Origin: Acidithiobacillus thiooxidans ATCC 19377
Lineage (GTDB): Bacteria; Pseudomonadota; Gammaproteobacteria; Acidithiobacillales; Acidithiobacillaceae
Length of the DNA stretch: 64,000 nucleotides
Direction: 5' to 3'
NCBI RefSeq assembly: GCF_009662475.1
Contig: NZ_CP045571.1
Location: 1,052,501-1,116,500 of the forward strand
Part shown: positions 6,697 through 55,148 of the stretch, piece after piece
Layout of the letters: every line of letters begins with the position of its first letter
How positions within the stretch are numbered: position 1 is the first letter of the stretch
Translations under genes and position numbers: made by a program
The notes under the pieces: model-generated
Databases searched by the model: none
The model's input: the letters and a program-made list of their open reading frames with translations, nothing else
Told to the model about the DNA's origin: nothing

Positions 6697-7311
6697 TTAG
6701 CGGCCATATCCGTAGGGCGAATAACCATAAGGAGACTGATAAGGACCCATGGGCGGAGGCGGCATGCTGGGACGCATCTGCTGCGGATAGGGTTGGCGAT
6801 ATTGTTGTGCGTATTGTTGTGGATATTGCCCCTGATTAGGATAAGCGTAGTTTTGTTGTGCCGGATAACGGGCATAACCTTGACTGGGTCCGTTGTAGGA
6901 TTGTTGTCCGTAGGATTGCGGATAACCATTACTACCACCGCCCTGATATTCGCCCTGATAAGGCTGCCCATAACCGCCGTAGTTACCGCTGTTCATGTTC
7001 ATGGGTCCACCATGCGGCCCATTGAAATTCATGCCACCCATATCCCAAGGGCCTTCTGATCCCTGCATGGGGCCACCATAGCCGCTAAAAGGCCCGCTGT
7101 TGCCATTCATGGGGCCGCTATAACCGGACCAGGGCATGCCACCACCACTCCAGGGCATCCCTCCACCACCACCGCTCCAGGGCATGTCGCCACCCCAAGG
7201 ACCCCAGGCATACGCCGGGGCTGCAATCATGAAGCCTGCCATACCGACACCCGCCATCAAAGCCAAAGACCGCAGTTTCCGGCCCATTGGTGTTTTTTTC
7301 AATGATTTCAT
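6697..7311 (-). CDS. Exported Gly/Pro/Tyr/Gln-rich low-complexity protein
   Basis: I place the start at 7311, where GGAGG lies eight bases upstream; an upstream in-frame start at 7407 lacks this. The product of 204 residues begins with a signal peptide (positive MKSLKKTPMGRKLRS, hydrophobic core, then APAYA and likely cleavage). The mature part is low complexity: three MPWSG repeats, then Gly/Pro/Met/Asn-rich and finally Gln/Tyr/Pro-rich sequence ending in SPYGYSPYGYGR. Such composition is seen in secreted adhesive or structural proteins; no enzymatic motif is present. First gene of the run leading into the ParA-like, TPR and pyrC genes. Function unknown. Confidence 0.65.
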   Translation of the reverse strand: MKSLKKTPMGRKLRSLALMAGVGMAGFMIAAPAYAWGPWGGDMPWSGGGGGMPWSGGGMPWSGYSGPMNGNSGPFSGYGGPMQGSEGPWDMGGMNFNGPHGGPMNMNSGNYGGYGQPYQGEYQGGGSNGYPQSYGQQSYNGPSQGYARYPAQQNYAYPNQGQYPQQYAQQYRQPYPQQMRPSMPPPPMGPYQSPYGYSPYGYGR

Positions 7312-7919
7312 CACATTTGCCTCCATGTTCGTTATAAAAAACCCTTGATAATGTTGGTTTCCAGAACCCGCCACGCCATCGGCTAATTCAGTAAGCTTTA
7401 TCAGCAAACAACGTGCCAGAAGTTAATCTCTTGTTTTATTGGGGATTATGGGTTTAAGAAATTTATCTTTTTGCAACAGAAAATTAAGCCAATATATTGA
7501 TATATAATAAATATTATAAATGTTGCAGCGTAAAAGAATGCAACGGTTCATACAACAGTTCTTGCAACGTGGGATTCAGATAAAAAAGGGAAATCAAGTG
7601 ATCTCCCGAATCTGGATGTGACAAACAACCCTACACCAGGGCACCGGCTTGTTATGCGCCTATCCGGCCATGGGCAGACCTGGGCGGGTTTTTGTAACCA
7701 GGGAATTAGTGATAACGGATCACCCGTACATTCTCCCTTATTGCGTGCGGTATGATGCCGTGGAAATAATACAGGTATTTCACAGCAGGCAAAAAAATCC
7801 GCGTAGGTGGTAGGGTCACGATAAAAACAGCGCATAACGTGAACACCAAGAGCGAGGCGATTTCTTGGCTTTCGATGCTTTGCTGGCGGGTTGTCCGGAT
7901 ACGTCCCGTTACAAGAAGC
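7312..7919. other. 608-base intergenic region, partly AT-rich
   Basis: Lies between the start of the low-complexity exported protein gene and the end of mutS. The part at 7430-7520 is strongly AT-rich and probably holds the promoter for the minus-strand gene run. GTTGCA and TGCAAC at 7522-7527 and 7539-7544 form a small dyad. A long hairpin occupies 7574-7617. A 95-codon minus-strand frame (7548-7835) looks non-coding. I see no confident gene. Confidence 0.45.
7574..7617. repeat. Long imperfect hairpin
   Basis: An outer stem of ATTCAGAT (7574-7581) pairs with ATCTGGAT (7610-7617) with one G-T pair. The inner stem GGGAAATCA pairs with TGATCTCCC with one mismatch, leaving a two-base loop. There is no T run directly after it on either strand, so it is not a standard terminator. 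It may be part of a small RNA or a regulatory structure. Confidence 0.4.
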
Positions 7920-30279: not shown

Positions 30280-31440
30280 ATGAGAAATAAATCACCGGAT
30301 AAATCGCGGAATTTATTGCAAACGAAAGCACAACGTTGGGTTGTAAAAATAGGCAGCAGCCTTCTCACAGATGAGGGAAGAGGCCTCGATCGAAAGTCCA
30401 TAGGCGGCTGGGTCCGACAAATTATTGCACTTCGCCGTTCCGGCATTGAAGTCATTCTGGTTTCATCAGGGTCAGTCAGTGCCGGAGTGCAACGTTTAGG
30501 TTGGTCGCAACGACCAGCGAATCTTAAGGAACGTCAGGCGGCCGCTAGTGTTGGTCAATCCGCTTTGATTCACACCTATGAAAAACTTCTTCGAGAGTGC
30601 GATGAACCCAATGAAATGCCCATTCATTGTGGTCAGGTTTTATTGACACACGATGATCTGCGCAGCCGACGCCGCTATCTGAATGCCCGTTCTGCCTTGT
30701 TGACCTTACTCGAAATGAATGTTTTGCCAATCATCAACGAAAATGACACAGTTTCTTACAATGCCATCAATCTTGGTGATAATGATACGCTTGCCGCTGT
30801 GGTCAGCAATTTGCTGGATGCGGATTTGCTGGTCATTCTGACGGATCAGGATGGGGTGTTTAATGCCGATCCGCGCAGCAATCCGGACGCGCAGCTACTT
30901 ACAGAAGTTAATGCTGGTGCCGCCATGCTGGAACGGATTGCCGGTAGTGGCGGTTCGGGTGTCGGCACCGGTGGTATGCTCGCCAAGGTGCGTGCAGCAA
31001 CTCGTGCTGCCCGTTCCGGGACATCCACCATTATTGCCAATGGTCGCTGCGACAATGTCTTACTGCGCATTCGCGATGGCGAAGCTCTGGGTACTTTCAT
31101 TCATGCCCGACTTCCCAAGCTGGATGCGCGTAAACGCTGGCTGGCCGGACATTTGCGGGCAAGAGGAACGCTGCACCTGGATGCTGGCGCGGTCCACGCG
31201 TTAAAGCAGGATGGCGGGAGTTTGTTACCGGTTGGGGTAACGGCTCTGGAAGGTAATTTTCATCGCGGTGATCTGGTGCTCTGCAAGGATCCCGATGGTA
31301 ATGTGTTTGCCCGAGGCCTGGTCAATTGGGACGCTAACGTGGTGCAACGCTGTCTGGGTAAAAAAAGTCCGGAAATTGCAGATGACCCCGATGTGGCAGA
31401 AGGGGTCATGATTCATCGCGATAATTTATTAATTCACTGA
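30280..31440 (+). CDS. proB: Glutamate 5-kinase
   Basis: 386 residues. It phosphorylates glutamate in the first step of proline synthesis. The amino-acid-kinase domain has VVKIGSSLLTDEGRGLD, VSSGSVSAGVQRLG, NENDTVSYNAINLGDNDTLAA and GTGGMLAKVRAA; a C-terminal PUA domain runs from about 285 (RGTLHLDAGAVHAL). It is not followed by proA or obgE as in many bacteria. The end overlaps the convergent MscS gene by seven bases. Confidence 0.96.
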   Translation: MRNKSPDKSRNLLQTKAQRWVVKIGSSLLTDEGRGLDRKSIGGWVRQIIALRRSGIEVILVSSGSVSAGVQRLGWSQRPANLKERQAAASVGQSALIHTYEKLLRECDEPNEMPIHCGQVLLTHDDLRSRRRYLNARSALLTLLEMNVLPIINENDTVSYNAINLGDNDTLAAVVSNLLDADLLVILTDQDGVFNADPRSNPDAQLLTEVNAGAAMLERIAGSGGSGVGTGGMLAKVRAATRAARSGTSTIIANGRCDNVLLRIRDGEALGTFIHARLPKLDARKRWLAGHLRARGTLHLDAGAVHALKQDGGSLLPVGVTALEGNFHRGDLVLCKDPDGNVFARGLVNWDANVVQRCLGKKSPEIADDPDVAEGVMIHRDNLLIH

Positions 31441-33800
31441 TTGCCTGGTTCTAGTGGATCATGAATGGTCCCGGTAGCCTTATCTACAGGAAGAATTTGA
31501 CTGGGGATAAAGTGCACATCCTGTTGCTGGTGGGCCAGACGAATATTGTGACGTAACAAACTCTCCACGACCGATGCCCGCAAATCGGTTTGGACGTTAA
31601 AACTTTTATTGCAGTCATCAAGATAAACACGCAAGTAAAACTGCAAGGCATTTTCACTGACATCCAGCAACAAGGCAGTCGGAGGAATTCCACGCGGGTC
31701 ATCCTGCAGAACATCCGGATGATTTTGTCCTTCCTTGACCAATAATTCTTTGACCAGTTTAATATCCGCGCTATGGGCAACATTAAATGGAATCATCAGG
31801 CGCAGCACACTGTTGGTATACATCCAGTTGGTCACCTGACCAGAAATGAGCTCGGAGTTGGGTACAAAGACTTCGGTACGATCAAAAGTCAGGATCAGTG
31901 TGTAACGAATACTCATTTTTTCTACATAACCCTGAGTGCTGCCGACCTGAATCCAGTCACCCACCCGAATCGGTCGTTCGAGTAACAGAATCAACCCAGA
32001 GACAAAATTATTGACAATATTTTGCAATCCAAAACCAATGCCCACTGACAGTGCGCCCGCAATAATGGCGAGATTATGGAGGGCTACACCGGCTGTTGAA
32101 AGGGCAATAAGTATGGCAATAATAAAACCTGTATAACGTACAATAGACAGAATTGAATGACGTGCACCGCTTTCCATATGACCAATAATACGGGAATTAT
32201 CAGAAAGATAGCGTTGCACAAATGTATTGATATTAATCAGCAGGATCAATAGTCCAATGGCAATAATCCAGCGGAAAGGTTGAAGATGAAAGGTTCCAAC
32301 GGTAAACCCGGTAATGAAATACTTCCATATTAATGAGAAGCCGGTATGGGTGAGCCCCCAGGCGTAAAGAATGAAGGCGCCAATTCCCAACCAGACGGCA
32401 ATATGACTCAGCGCACTGAACCAGCCAAGCCAAGGTAGTGCTTGATCATCCTTGAGTCCCAGACGTAGCTTCAGCACATGTTGCCAGCGACCATCTTTAC
32501 GCGCAGTGTAATTCCAGAAATCACTGAGCCCCCAGGAAATAAACAGGCCAATACCCAGTGCTAACAAGGACATCAGCAGGCCAAAAAACAGATAGTTGGT
32601 TAGATTGCGATAACCCAGTAATGTAAATACAGCTGTTGCCAGCAGCGCAATCAGTATAATAATCCGCAAAAAAGGGTAAGCTTTAAAGGGCCTTTTACCT
32701 CCGGCTTCCATGACCAGTCGGATTACCGCGCTGATCACCAAAAGATGATAAATCGACCATAATAAAGCCTGTTGTTGCCTGTTCAGGAAATCCTGTGGAG
32801 CGATAATAATCCAGCTCACCGCAAAGGCGGCCAAAAAAGCAATAAAACGCAGGGTACGCAATGTGGAACGTAAGGTTTCCGGACCCCAGGCGAAATGATG
32901 AAAAACGACTCCACTGGGACGTAATGCCCAAGTGACCAGAATCGCCAGCAAGGCATAGCCTCCCCAGGTTATCAGCACAATATCTACAAATGGAGAAAGG
33001 ACCCCTGTAAAGTGCGCTGCTAGTGCCGTTGCGGAAACGCCGGCAACAATGGGTAAGTAGTGATAGAGACTTTTTTGCGCTGCCGATAGTTGCGTTCCAA
33101 GCTTTGTGCTCTCGGGAAGTGATTTACGTACAATCAGCAGTAATAAAAAAACAAATAGACCAATGGCTATGGATACCTGAAGGTTTTTCTGGGCAAAAAT
33201 GAAGCGATGATTGCGATGAAACCAGTAGTTTCTCTCCTGCGTCCAGGTACTTGAGCTTACAGCCCAAAAAGTATTAATCTGTGCCCATATATTTTGATCC
33301 TTACGTAATAGTATTTGCGCATGCAGATTGTCACGCTTTTTCTCAATTTCTTGTTCCAAGTCAGTGCTGGCTACCGCAATAATTTTGCAGGTAGCAATTT
33401 CTCCCTGCAGATCTTTTTGTCGAGTAAGTAGTTTTGTTCTTAATGCCGTCAGATTTTCTGGTTCACCGGTGACCGCAGGCCCGAGAATTCCCAAGCCACT
33501 ATCAGTCTGTTTAAGCTGATTATTCTTGTCGCTGATGCACTTCTGTGCATGGTCTTTGATGATGCTGGTGCTTTTATGCCAATTAAGAAGCTGCTGCATA
33601 TCAACTGGTTGTTCTAATTGTGTATGTATTTCCTGCAGAATTTTGCTGTCCTGATCAATTTTTGTGCTGGTAGATGCATCAGCAGAAAAAGAAAAAACCA
33701 ATGTTATAAATATAAGAATATTAATGATAACAGTGTACATGGAATTATTTTTAAAGTGTGAGCCGTGCCGTATCGAAAAAGAAGATTTTCGTTCTGTCAC
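31434..33800 (-). CDS. Large MscS-family mechanosensitive channel
   Basis: 788 residues from a GTG at 33800 with AGGAG six bases upstream. A signal-like segment (about 22-42) is followed by a periplasmic coiled-coil region (about 45-200), then about eleven membrane segments. The MscS core is near 560-680, with the pore-lining ALSVGIGFGLQNIVNNFVSGLILLLERPIRVGDWIQVG stretch and a beta-domain after it. This resembles MscK/MscM-like multi-segment channels, which release solutes during hypo-osmotic shock. Its end overlaps proB, whose product makes the osmoprotectant proline; any link is speculative. Confidence 0.87.
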   Translation of the reverse strand: MTERKSSFSIRHGSHFKNNSMYTVIINILIFITLVFSFSADASTSTKIDQDSKILQEIHTQLEQPVDMQQLLNWHKSTSIIKDHAQKCISDKNNQLKQTDSGLGILGPAVTGEPENLTALRTKLLTRQKDLQGEIATCKIIAVASTDLEQEIEKKRDNLHAQILLRKDQNIWAQINTFWAVSSSTWTQERNYWFHRNHRFIFAQKNLQVSIAIGLFVFLLLLIVRKSLPESTKLGTQLSAAQKSLYHYLPIVAGVSATALAAHFTGVLSPFVDIVLITWGGYALLAILVTWALRPSGVVFHHFAWGPETLRSTLRTLRFIAFLAAFAVSWIIIAPQDFLNRQQQALLWSIYHLLVISAVIRLVMEAGGKRPFKAYPFLRIIILIALLATAVFTLLGYRNLTNYLFFGLLMSLLALGIGLFISWGLSDFWNYTARKDGRWQHVLKLRLGLKDDQALPWLGWFSALSHIAVWLGIGAFILYAWGLTHTGFSLIWKYFITGFTVGTFHLQPFRWIIAIGLLILLININTFVQRYLSDNSRIIGHMESGARHSILSIVRYTGFIIAILIALSTAGVALHNLAIIAGALSVGIGFGLQNIVNNFVSGLILLLERPIRVGDWIQVGSTQGYVEKMSIRYTLILTFDRTEVFVPNSELISGQVTNWMYTNSVLRLMIPFNVAHSADIKLVKELLVKEGQNHPDVLQDDPRGIPPTALLLDVSENALQFYLRVYLDDCNKSFNVQTDLRASVVESLLRHNIRLAHQQQDVHFIPSQILPVDKATGTIHDPLEPGNQ

Positions 33801-34122
33801 AATAACTCCTATTTATGGCAGTAAGATAATATTCAAAAAACATCAGGATGAATAAATATAACATAATCTGGCATTAAAGACCTAATCCCTAGGCTGTAGC
33901 CAAATGACCGCAGTATGGTCAGATCATTAAAAACCGGTCTGTGAACGAAAAGGGGCGTCTGCTTGTCGGGGTATGGAGACAGGCTGGGCGAGTATGTAGG
34001 GCGTGCATGGCTAAGATAATCATTTTGTCAGAATTTGATCCTATTCATGAAGATGACGTAACTACCGGTAGAGAAAAGATTTTACTTCTGATCCGGCTAA
34101 AGGAATGAGAGTTTTTAATAAC
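33801..34122. other. Intergenic region with dyads upstream of a sigma-54 promoter
   Basis: About 320 bases without a convincing gene. Two dyads could bind an activator: TGACC-N7-GGTCA at 33905-33921 and CTACCGGTAG at 34062-34071, the latter about 80 bases before the predicted start site, a usual distance for an enhancer-binding protein. ACCGGT also occurs at 33933-33938. Confidence 0.35.
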
Positions 34123-34139
34123 TGGCATGCAGTTTGCTT
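34123..34139 (+). promoter_or_regulatory. Sigma-54 promoter
   Basis: TGGCATG-N4-TTGCTT matches the -24/-12 consensus TGGCAYG-N4-TTGCW completely, with GG and GC twelve bases apart. The predicted start is near 34149, 29 bases before the small gene's ATG. Confidence 0.85.
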
Positions 34140-34177
34140 AAGCATACCATTCTCCCTGAATCGAAAAAGGACCTCTC

Positions 34178-34426
34178 ATGAAAAAGTCACTCAGCAATAT
34201 GGTTTTTGTTCTGCTGCTTGCCACGCCTTTTATGGCCTTGGGGAGCTTTGTGCATGCCGTCACCCCTTTACATAACCAACTGGCGCAAGGGTCTTTGCCT
34301 CACCCTATTGTTCACGGTGAATATCAGGCAGTACGCGTTATGGGTAAAACTGCCGCGCATCTTGAATCCGCTGGCTGGCTGCAGTTGCATCCGGACAAGT
34401 TAAAAGTTCGCACCTGGTCACCCTAA
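34178..34426 (+). CDS. Small exported protein under sigma-54 control
   Basis: 82 residues. A signal peptide is evident (MKKSLSNMVF, hydrophobic core, then GSFVHA and likely cleavage), leaving a mature protein of about 55 residues beginning VTPLHNQLAQG. AAAGGA precedes the ATG. I do not recognise the mature sequence; it has no cysteine and no lipobox, so it should be periplasmic or secreted. It is the only gene behind a consensus sigma-54 promoter and ends against the convergent ferritin-like gene (four-base overlap). Sigma-54 control implies expression tied to an enhancer-binding regulator, perhaps flagellar or nutrient-linked. Confidence 0.75.
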   Translation: MKKSLSNMVFVLLLATPFMALGSFVHAVTPLHNQLAQGSLPHPIVHGEYQAVRVMGKTAAHLESAGWLQLHPDKLKVRTWSP

Positions 34427-35259
34427 CTGGCCAAGGCCTTTCGGGCACTGCGCTTCAACAGGGGCAGTGCCATTTTTTGTAAGGTGGGTGGTAGGGATAC
34501 CGGTTTTAGCAACATTTTAATTGCCATTTCAAAGGGGTAGTGGCGGCTGACCCAGTCTCCCATCCGTTCCCGGAATGCCGCAAAGTCCTTACCTGAAAAA
34601 GTTTGCCCAGGATTTTTTACTTCAAAAGCATTTTTGATGGCTAAATAGCTATCTTCCTGATCGACTTCCGACACTCTTTTCCAGAGTTCCCGGCCAATTC
34701 GCCAGCGTGAATTTTTTTCCTGCTGCTGATAAGCCTGAAAGAATTTATAAAAGTATTTGTAGTGGTGGACTTCATCAGCACGAATGCGCCCAGCCAGTAA
34801 ACGGAGAACCGGTTCCGGGCTGGCGGACTGAATCATGGTGTAAAAACTGGCGGTACCTGTCTCTACGACGCAGCGAGACGCCATTTCCAGCGCCTGGCTA
34901 GGACCCAGCAAATCTGTCTGGCAGTAGGGCATGTAAGCTTGCACAAAGCCTTTATAGGCGCGCTCCCAGTCGAAGTCTGGCCAGATCTGCAGGACATAGG
35001 CCTTCAGGGCCAATCCATGCTGAACTTCTTCCTGCTCCCATTCTCTGCTGAGCCATGCAGTAGCCGCAGCATTCTCCTGAAAGTATTCCACCAGATTGCG
35101 GGCATAGAGGTCAGAAAGCGTTTCCACAAAGGAGGCTCCTGCCAGCAGATAAAACCAGTCTGTCTGATCAACTATTCTGGTTTTTTCTATGCTTGCATAG
35201 GGTATATCTGCCAGAGTCCAAGTTGGATGCTTTCTCATAGTGGGGATGGCAACGGGCAT
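34423..35259 (-). CDS. Ferritin-like di-iron protein (acyl-ACP desaturase-like)
   Basis: 278 residues from ATG 35259 (AGGAG 12 bases upstream; longer in-frame starts would run into the upstream gene). Two di-iron motifs of the acyl-ACP desaturase/ferritin-like type are visible: WEQEEVQHGLALKAY and RADEVHHYKYF, each giving Glu-x-x-His, with an extra Glu in CVVETGTASFY. Such proteins activate O2 for desaturation, hydroxylation or N-oxygenation. The substrate is unknown. It follows the QueC-like gene by 37 bases. Confidence 0.7.
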   Translation of the reverse strand: MPVAIPTMRKHPTWTLADIPYASIEKTRIVDQTDWFYLLAGASFVETLSDLYARNLVEYFQENAAATAWLSREWEQEEVQHGLALKAYVLQIWPDFDWERAYKGFVQAYMPYCQTDLLGPSQALEMASRCVVETGTASFYTMIQSASPEPVLRLLAGRIRADEVHHYKYFYKFFQAYQQQEKNSRWRIGRELWKRVSEVDQEDSYLAIKNAFEVKNPGQTFSGKDFAAFRERMGDWVSRHYPFEMAIKMLLKPVSLPPTLQKMALPLLKRSARKALAS

Positions 35260-35296
35260 GGATTGAGCCGTCTCCTTTGGGGTGGATGAAATCGGG

Positions 35297-54955: not shown

Positions 54956-54972
54956 AAGCAAATAATGCGCCA
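54956..54972 (-). promoter_or_regulatory. Sigma-54 promoter for flgA
   Basis: Read on the minus strand: TGGCGCA-N4-TTGCTT, with GG and GC twelve bases apart. The fifth and seventh positions differ from the consensus. Predicted start near 54946, 35 bases before the flgA ATG. Confidence 0.65.
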
Positions 54973-55131: not shown

Positions 55132-55148
55132 TGGCATGTATGTTGCTT
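55132..55148 (+). promoter_or_regulatory. Sigma-54 promoter for flgB
   Basis: TGGCATG-N4-TTGCTT fits the -24/-12 consensus fully. Predicted start near 55158, 28 bases before the flgB ATG. The -24 and -12 hexamers are the same as at 34123-34139. Confidence 0.88.

Follow-up and report, generated by a model that had tools for sequence, protein, structure and literature searches.

Among the described systems in which sigma-54 controls small envelope proteins, a familiar one is that of the psp genes (pspA-E and pspG), which are under PspF. The gene described here, designated gene X, is comparable to the phage-shock regulon in that a sigma-54 activator would drive the production of a small envelope protein, but the activator and its binding site are different, and neither Pfam nor NCBIfam has a family to which the product of gene X can be matched. 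A closer parallel is the enterobacterial GlrK/GlrR (QseE/QseF) regulon (glmY, rpoE P2), with which the present locus shares a TGTC-N10-GACA enhancer upstream of a sigma-54 promoter, an orthologous response regulator, identical in its recognition stretch, the presence of an output gene close to glrK, and a link to cell-envelope homeostasis, as far as the enterobacterial system is described in the accessible text of PMC6075780 and PMC8745638. In the same accessible portions, the consensus for QseF (GlrR) is given as TGTCN10GACA (PMC8745638), and its sites are given as TGTN12ACA (PMC6075780). The two systems also differ in several respects, namely, genes for small proteins, together with opgG, would be the outputs in Acidithiobacillus whereas the enterobacterial outputs are a small RNA and sigma-E; in E. 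coli, qseG is located between glrK and glrR whereas here no listed ORF of at least 50 aa separates the two; and the promoters considered here carry one or two boxes, compared with three at E. coli glmY. In the accessible text of PMC12194929, which deals with the sigma factors of this class, GlrR/GlrK appear among the two-component systems with no target assigned to them, and the literature searched, supplements and most subscription journals being out of reach, yielded no account of targets of GlrR in this class.

Gene X (34178..34426, + strand) is located in the window, that is, the whole stretch of 64,000 nucleotides that was analysed, which comes from a genome assembled as a single contig of 3.42 Mb. 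The gene encodes an 82-aa, probably exported orphan protein and is preceded by the ribosome binding site AAGGA (34167..34171, +), with AAAAAGGA kept in all five close sequences aligned. The claim of an earlier note on this DNA that this is an 82-codon gene without a known domain held up: both the ORF and AAGGA are present, and the protein has no match at E<=10 in Pfam and NCBIfam. A PDB search with a profile of 17 rows gave no match at E<=1, the single PHROGs match (E 0.39) is not significant, and the structure model is poor, with a mean pLDDT of 53.7, too poor for a fold search. A profile search, which gave no match in G021, detected gene X in 17 of the 31 genomes of the order, in two of the six genera; a match in G021 (L024, E 0.005) with one internal stop was excluded, and two weak matches in the source genome itself (L002 and L003, E 0.13-0.18) were dropped. 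With the single sequence as the query, a match was obtained in 18 of the 29 genomes of the family, and in a sample of 369 genomes of the class, the gene was found in the source genome only. The nearest loci with names belong to Acidithiobacillus sp. HP-2, A. concretivorus, A. sulfurivorans and a MAG labelled A. ferrivorans. Gene X, known so far only from the acidophilic Acidithiobacillus and its close kin, appears to be lineage-specific.

The homologous proteins are 98 to 31% identical to the protein encoded in the window, are 81-94 aa long and have 13 invariant positions, including P17, F18, A20, L21, G22, E63, W67, L68 and S81, with a conserved segment E63-x-A65-x-W67-L68. Among 17 chosen pairs, dN/dS lies between 0.07 and 0.88, and 14 of the pairs have 0.51 or less; the three highest values come from the trio L013/L014/L015, among which there are few differences. 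As judged by these comparisons of coding sequences, selection on gene X is mostly purifying and the ORF is a real gene; the mostly low dN/dS together with the steady length supports its translation.

The predicted protein is probably exported. Its homologues begin with MKK in 15 of the 17 cases, followed by a hydrophobic stretch; P17, A20, L21 and G22 are invariant, and the putative signal sequence (34178..34243, +) would likely be cleaved after G22 or else kept as a membrane anchor. The mature form of 55 residues proposed in the earlier note depends on a cut at VHA|VTP, where HA is present in only 6 of the 17 homologues and T, E or H is found in the other 11. Cleavage by signal peptidase I after G22 appears to fit better given the invariance of P17, F18, A20, L21 and G22. 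The sequence contains no cysteine and, therefore, no lipobox.

On one side, gene X is flanked by a divergent gene for a MscK/MscS-type mechanosensitive channel (31434..33800, - strand), with PF00924 and PF21082 over the cut-off and MscK as the best NCBIfam model, below its cut-off; on the other side, a tail-to-tail neighbour (34423..35271, -) encodes a 282-aa protein with no confident family in Pfam or NCBIfam. The neighbourhoods of 13 of the 17 homologues were read using a crude longest-ORF gene picker. The channel gene adjoins gene X in 12 of these 13, the thirteenth being cut near a contig end, and a convergent neighbour of the 282-aa type is likewise found in 12 of the 13. Synteny covers the whole of a larger block around gene X, so the closeness of the channel gene is not specific. 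The notion of a single small gene behind the promoter is correct for the window but not throughout the genus, because in at least 6 of the 13 neighbourhoods (L072, L074-L078), a gene for a small Pro/Tyr-rich protein with a signal-like start, absent from the window, closely follows gene X.

The sigma-54 promoter of gene X, TGGCATGCAGTTTGCTT (34123..34139, +), has the GG of the -24 element at 34124-34125 and the GC of the -12 element at 34136-34137, and the spacing from the latter predicts a transcription start at 34149 (+). The description of this element in the earlier note as perfect was slightly generous: the element is there, with GG and GC correctly spaced, but has one mismatch to TGGCAC-N5-TTGCW, with T for C at position 6 (among the five close sequences aligned, four have TGGCAC and the window has TGGCAT). 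Its hexamers are indeed the same as in the flgB-like site at 55132 (flgB named by eye), as had been stated. Within the window, the sigma-54 pattern yields six matches compared with 4.0 expected, so the pattern alone is weak evidence here. Genome-wide, TGGCAYN5TTGCTT with up to one mismatch occurs at 63 sites compared with 14 for a reversed control, and the promoter of gene X is one of nine exact sites. The evidence that we consider decisive for this predicted promoter is, however, conservation: an element with TGGCA[CT] is located 53-60 bp before the ATG in all 17 homologues, which strongly supports the proposal that a small and probably exported orphan protein is under sigma-54 control of its own. 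All 31 genomes of the order have RpoN. A search of 33700-34700 for sigma-70-like promoters gave none, compared with an average of 1.8 in shuffled sequences. Elsewhere in the window, a sigma-54-like site, TGGCACGTTGTTTGCTG (7403-7418, -), with no TGTC-N10-GACA box within one mismatch, overlaps the first in-frame start of an ORF (6697-7407, -) that encodes a Gly/Trp/Pro-rich protein with a signal-like stretch.

Upstream of the promoter, a candidate GlrR/QseF-type activating sequence of the form TGTC-N10-GACA, TGTCGGGGTATGGAGACA, is located at 33964..33981 (+), some 160 bp before the -24 element. Twelve of the 17 promoters of gene X have this box in perfect form, and the remaining 5 have it with one mismatch; it lies 139-163 bp upstream of the start of the -24 element in the genus and 103-104 bp in the sister genus. 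In a scan of 2816 dyad types (256 half-sites with 11 gaps, 4 to 14), TGTC-N10-GACA ranked first among these promoters, the next unrelated dyad reaching a perfect count of 5. With one mismatch allowed, all 17 promoters match, but the margin is smaller, the A-rich AAAA-N4-TTTT reaching 12 of the 17. Among six clade representatives, the upstream regions of which are 48-72% identical in global alignment, TGTC-N10-GACA is again first, tied with GTCG-N8-CGAC, another description of this site. As a positive control, three perfect boxes were recovered upstream of glmY in E. coli K-12, for example, TGTCGCTTTCTGGCGACA, and the box of opgG in the source genome, TGTCGCTTATTGGCGACA, differs from that one at 2 of 18 positions. 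The motif alone does not name the binding protein because Rhodobacter PpsR is described with the same string, TGTcN10gACA (in the accessible text of PMC5747161). By the glmY model, an IHF site would be expected between the enhancer and the promoter; exact sites are found in 2 of the 17 promoters (shuffle mean 0.2), and sites with one mismatch in 4 (shuffle mean 2.9). The enhancer sites originally suggested for this promoter were two dyads at 33905-33921 and 34062-34071, which exist but are not conserved. Each is intact in 2 of the 17 promoters and in two of the five close sequences aligned (window included), and within one mismatch they reach only 4 and 3 of the 17, respectively.

Perfect boxes are not enriched in the genome as a whole (34, compared with 40 in the reversed control), so a box is meaningful only in context. 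When the coordinates of all 63 sigma-54-like sites were compared with those of the 34 boxes, three pairs within 250 bp and in the right order were found, compared with 0.16 expected, and these belong to gene X, a gene designated Y, and opgG. Around the remaining 31 perfect boxes, 8 loci have a sigma-54 score of at least 13 of 16.5 (background, 16% of 230-bp stretches), and none joins TGGCA with TGC at -12.

Gene Y (G000 2489482-2489700, L096; others L114-L142) encodes a 72-aa basic protein of no Pfam or NCBIfam family and is present in 29 of the 31 genomes of the order, a second match in G002 (L143, E 0.006) having been dropped. All 29 loci were scanned, the sigma-54 pattern being relaxed so as to allow TGGCC. 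The sigma-54 element is present in 28, the sole exception (L115) having GGGCAC for TGGCAC; 26 loci have a perfect box and 28 a box with at most one mismatch, and the spacing between element and box is nearly fixed. By perfect count, TGTC-N10-GACA is the first-ranked dyad in this set as well, although with one mismatch allowed other dyads reach up to 25 of the 29. The product of opgG is MdoG according to Pfam (E 6.8e-153), a protein of periplasmic glucan synthesis. The source genome has two copies (G000 1011974-1013521 and 1214181-1215689), both with a sigma-54 element and a box, the second box having one mismatch. Across 37 family loci, not counting the partial matches G013:C84 (L185), G019:C75 and G004:C102, the box is found within one mismatch in 36 (15 perfect; the exception is L150) and the sigma-54 element in 36 (the exception is L153). 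The second copies mostly carry a CGTCG variant, and the opgG genes of G029 and G030, which are outside the family and not among the 37, have no box.

A further gene, designated Z (G000 204423-204668, L186), is located 2.7 kb before glrK and encodes an 81-aa Lys/Glu-rich and also His-rich protein with a signal-like N-terminus; it has a sigma-54 element and two one-mismatch boxes. Of 20 stretches fetched from upstream of glrR elsewhere, 10 (L218-L222, L226, L227, L233, L234, L236) have such a gene with such boxes, comprising 10 of 12 from the two genera that have gene X and none of 8 from the others, one of these being only 984 bp long. The search looked for a sigma-54 element and then an ORF, so that a gene Z behind another promoter would escape it. 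Protein Z, but not protein X, resembles the acid-shock protein Asr in being small, exported and Lys-rich; the Pfam match (E 0.054, 14.5 bits) is below the cut-off of 24.9 and could be produced by composition alone.

Box sequences were also inspected at 30 of the 63 sigma-54-like sites. One-mismatch boxes occur at 5 of the 27 examined sites that lack a perfect box (flgA-, fliE-, hupS- and phnD-like, named by eye, and L057), compared with about 4 by our estimate of chance, and the flgB- and fliC-like sites (also named by eye) have no box within one mismatch. A flagellar regulon was set aside as an explanation for gene X. Within the window, divergent sigma-54 sites at 54957 (-) and 55132 (+) stand before the flgA- and flgB-like ORFs, with no perfect box. 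At L057 (G000 1005313), a small Pro-rich lipoprotein-like ORF lies behind TGGAACGCTTATTGCTT, with its one-mismatch box at -133, and this gene may be a further member of the regulon; a similar site is found at G000 2404499.

The source genome encodes an orthologue of GlrR. It has 14 PF00158 matches at E<=1e-40. From 19 places in the genome, 13 activator proteins were compared, a broken one at 2855015 and weak matches being left out, and the best of these 13, the protein encoded at 209221-210606 with its partner kinase GlrK (207384-208901), is 57% identical to E. coli GlrR over 429 aligned columns and has the identical recognition stretch RNRTEFY. The GlrR model of NCBIfam ranks first for this protein, with 611 bits, which is below the cut-off of 763. 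By identity, orthologue-grade GlrR is present in 29 of the 31 genomes. In 27 of them the identity is at least 85% (including one protein truncated at a contig end and four whose aligned stretch contains one stop), in another the gene is divided between two contigs, and in the last the identity is 62%. In G023 and G030, the match is only 44-46% identical; G023 is the sole genome of the family without an orthologue-grade GlrR, and as it is 91% complete, this absence may reflect an assembly gap. The box of gene Y in G023 is degraded, with two mismatches. The boxes of opgG are kept in this genome, which counts against a simple story of GlrR loss.

The architecture of promoter and box shared by opgG, Y and Z suggests envelope homeostasis under GlrR. 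Judging from the sequences compared, we consider it likely that gene X is a lineage-specific output of the GlrKR-sigma54 envelope-homeostasis regulon; it is not a core GlrR output because X and Z are both absent from many genomes that have GlrR. In the scheme that we propose, GlrK would serve as the partner kinase, phosphorylated GlrR would bind the box upstream of gene X and contact sigma-54 RNA polymerase by looping, and transcription would start near 34149. The product would then enter the envelope via Sec, either as a periplasmic protein of about 60 aa or anchored in the membrane, and would serve envelope homeostasis beside opgG (periplasmic glucans), protein Z, which is Lys/Glu-rich and exported, and protein Y, which is basic. 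For the attachment role once suggested for protein X, no supporting evidence was found, and the genes with the shared architecture point to envelope homeostasis.

Several other readings have to be weighed. Pseudomonas PilR has TGTC half-sites, and gene X might be a sigma-54-driven gene of a different circuit, with GlrR_2 or another regulator of TGTC half-sites, such as PilR, as the activator. GlrR_2 (487750-489504), for which the GlrR model of NCBIfam also ranks first below the cut-off, is 47% identical to E. coli GlrR and, with its related helix GRHRTDLYKLM, could read the same box, and the retention of opgG boxes in G023 would be accommodated. This reading is nevertheless rather unlikely: RNRTEFY is kept in GlrR but not in GlrR_2, the C-terminus of the PilR-like protein (named by eye) is divergent, the Y box is degraded in G023, and two boxes precede gene Z, 2.7 kb from glrK. 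Alternatively, protein X could be a small envelope protein by which the regulon tunes its own sensor, GlrK, much as MgrB acts on PhoQ. The control of QseE by the lipoprotein QseG is published (accessible text of PMC6075780), and a small, probably exported protein encoded behind the regulator's box suits such feedback; against it, gene X was not found in 14 of the 31 genomes although orthologue-grade GlrR is in 29, it is distant from glrKR, and the protein lacks the cysteine of a lipobox, so we regard this role as unlikely.

The association with the channel gene and the box common to gene X and opgG, an osmotically linked gene, would suit a protein that works with the divergent MscK-type channel, for example, as an accessory peptide in hypo-osmotic shock; yet no GG-N10-GC element faces the channel gene (33730 to 34010) and the synteny extends to the larger block, which makes such a partnership quite unlikely. 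Finally, it is conceivable that the transcript matters and the ORF is incidental, as in the E. coli output of GlrR-sigma54, the small RNA GlmY (accessible text of PMC6075780). However, homologues down to 31% identity keep the frame, the length and the 13 invariant residues, dN/dS is mostly well below 1, and Rfam gave no match at E<=1 in 33700-34700, from the GlmY family or otherwise, so that a GlmY-like RNA is very improbable. Within the preferred reading of gene X as an output of the GlrKR-sigma54 regulon, a periplasmic effector would be the first choice for its role, the alternatives being feedback on GlrK or partnership with the channel.

More tentatively, and with somewhat less than an even chance of being correct, the GlrKR-sigma54 system of Acidithiobacillaceae could have become an envelope programme of small proteins for living at very low pH, different from the GlmY/RpoE scheme of enterobacteria, with GlrR activating glucan synthesis together with X, Y and Z, and with protein X acting as a periplasmic effector or as a tuner of GlrK feedback. 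Through the comparisons described here, a nameless gene gains a specific candidate for its regulator and a regulon that can be tested, and the GlrR enhancer code would be extended from enterobacteria to acidophiles. These observations suggest that a single envelope-stress pathway can work through periplasmic glucans and small exported proteins in one lineage and through a small RNA and a sigma factor in enterobacteria.
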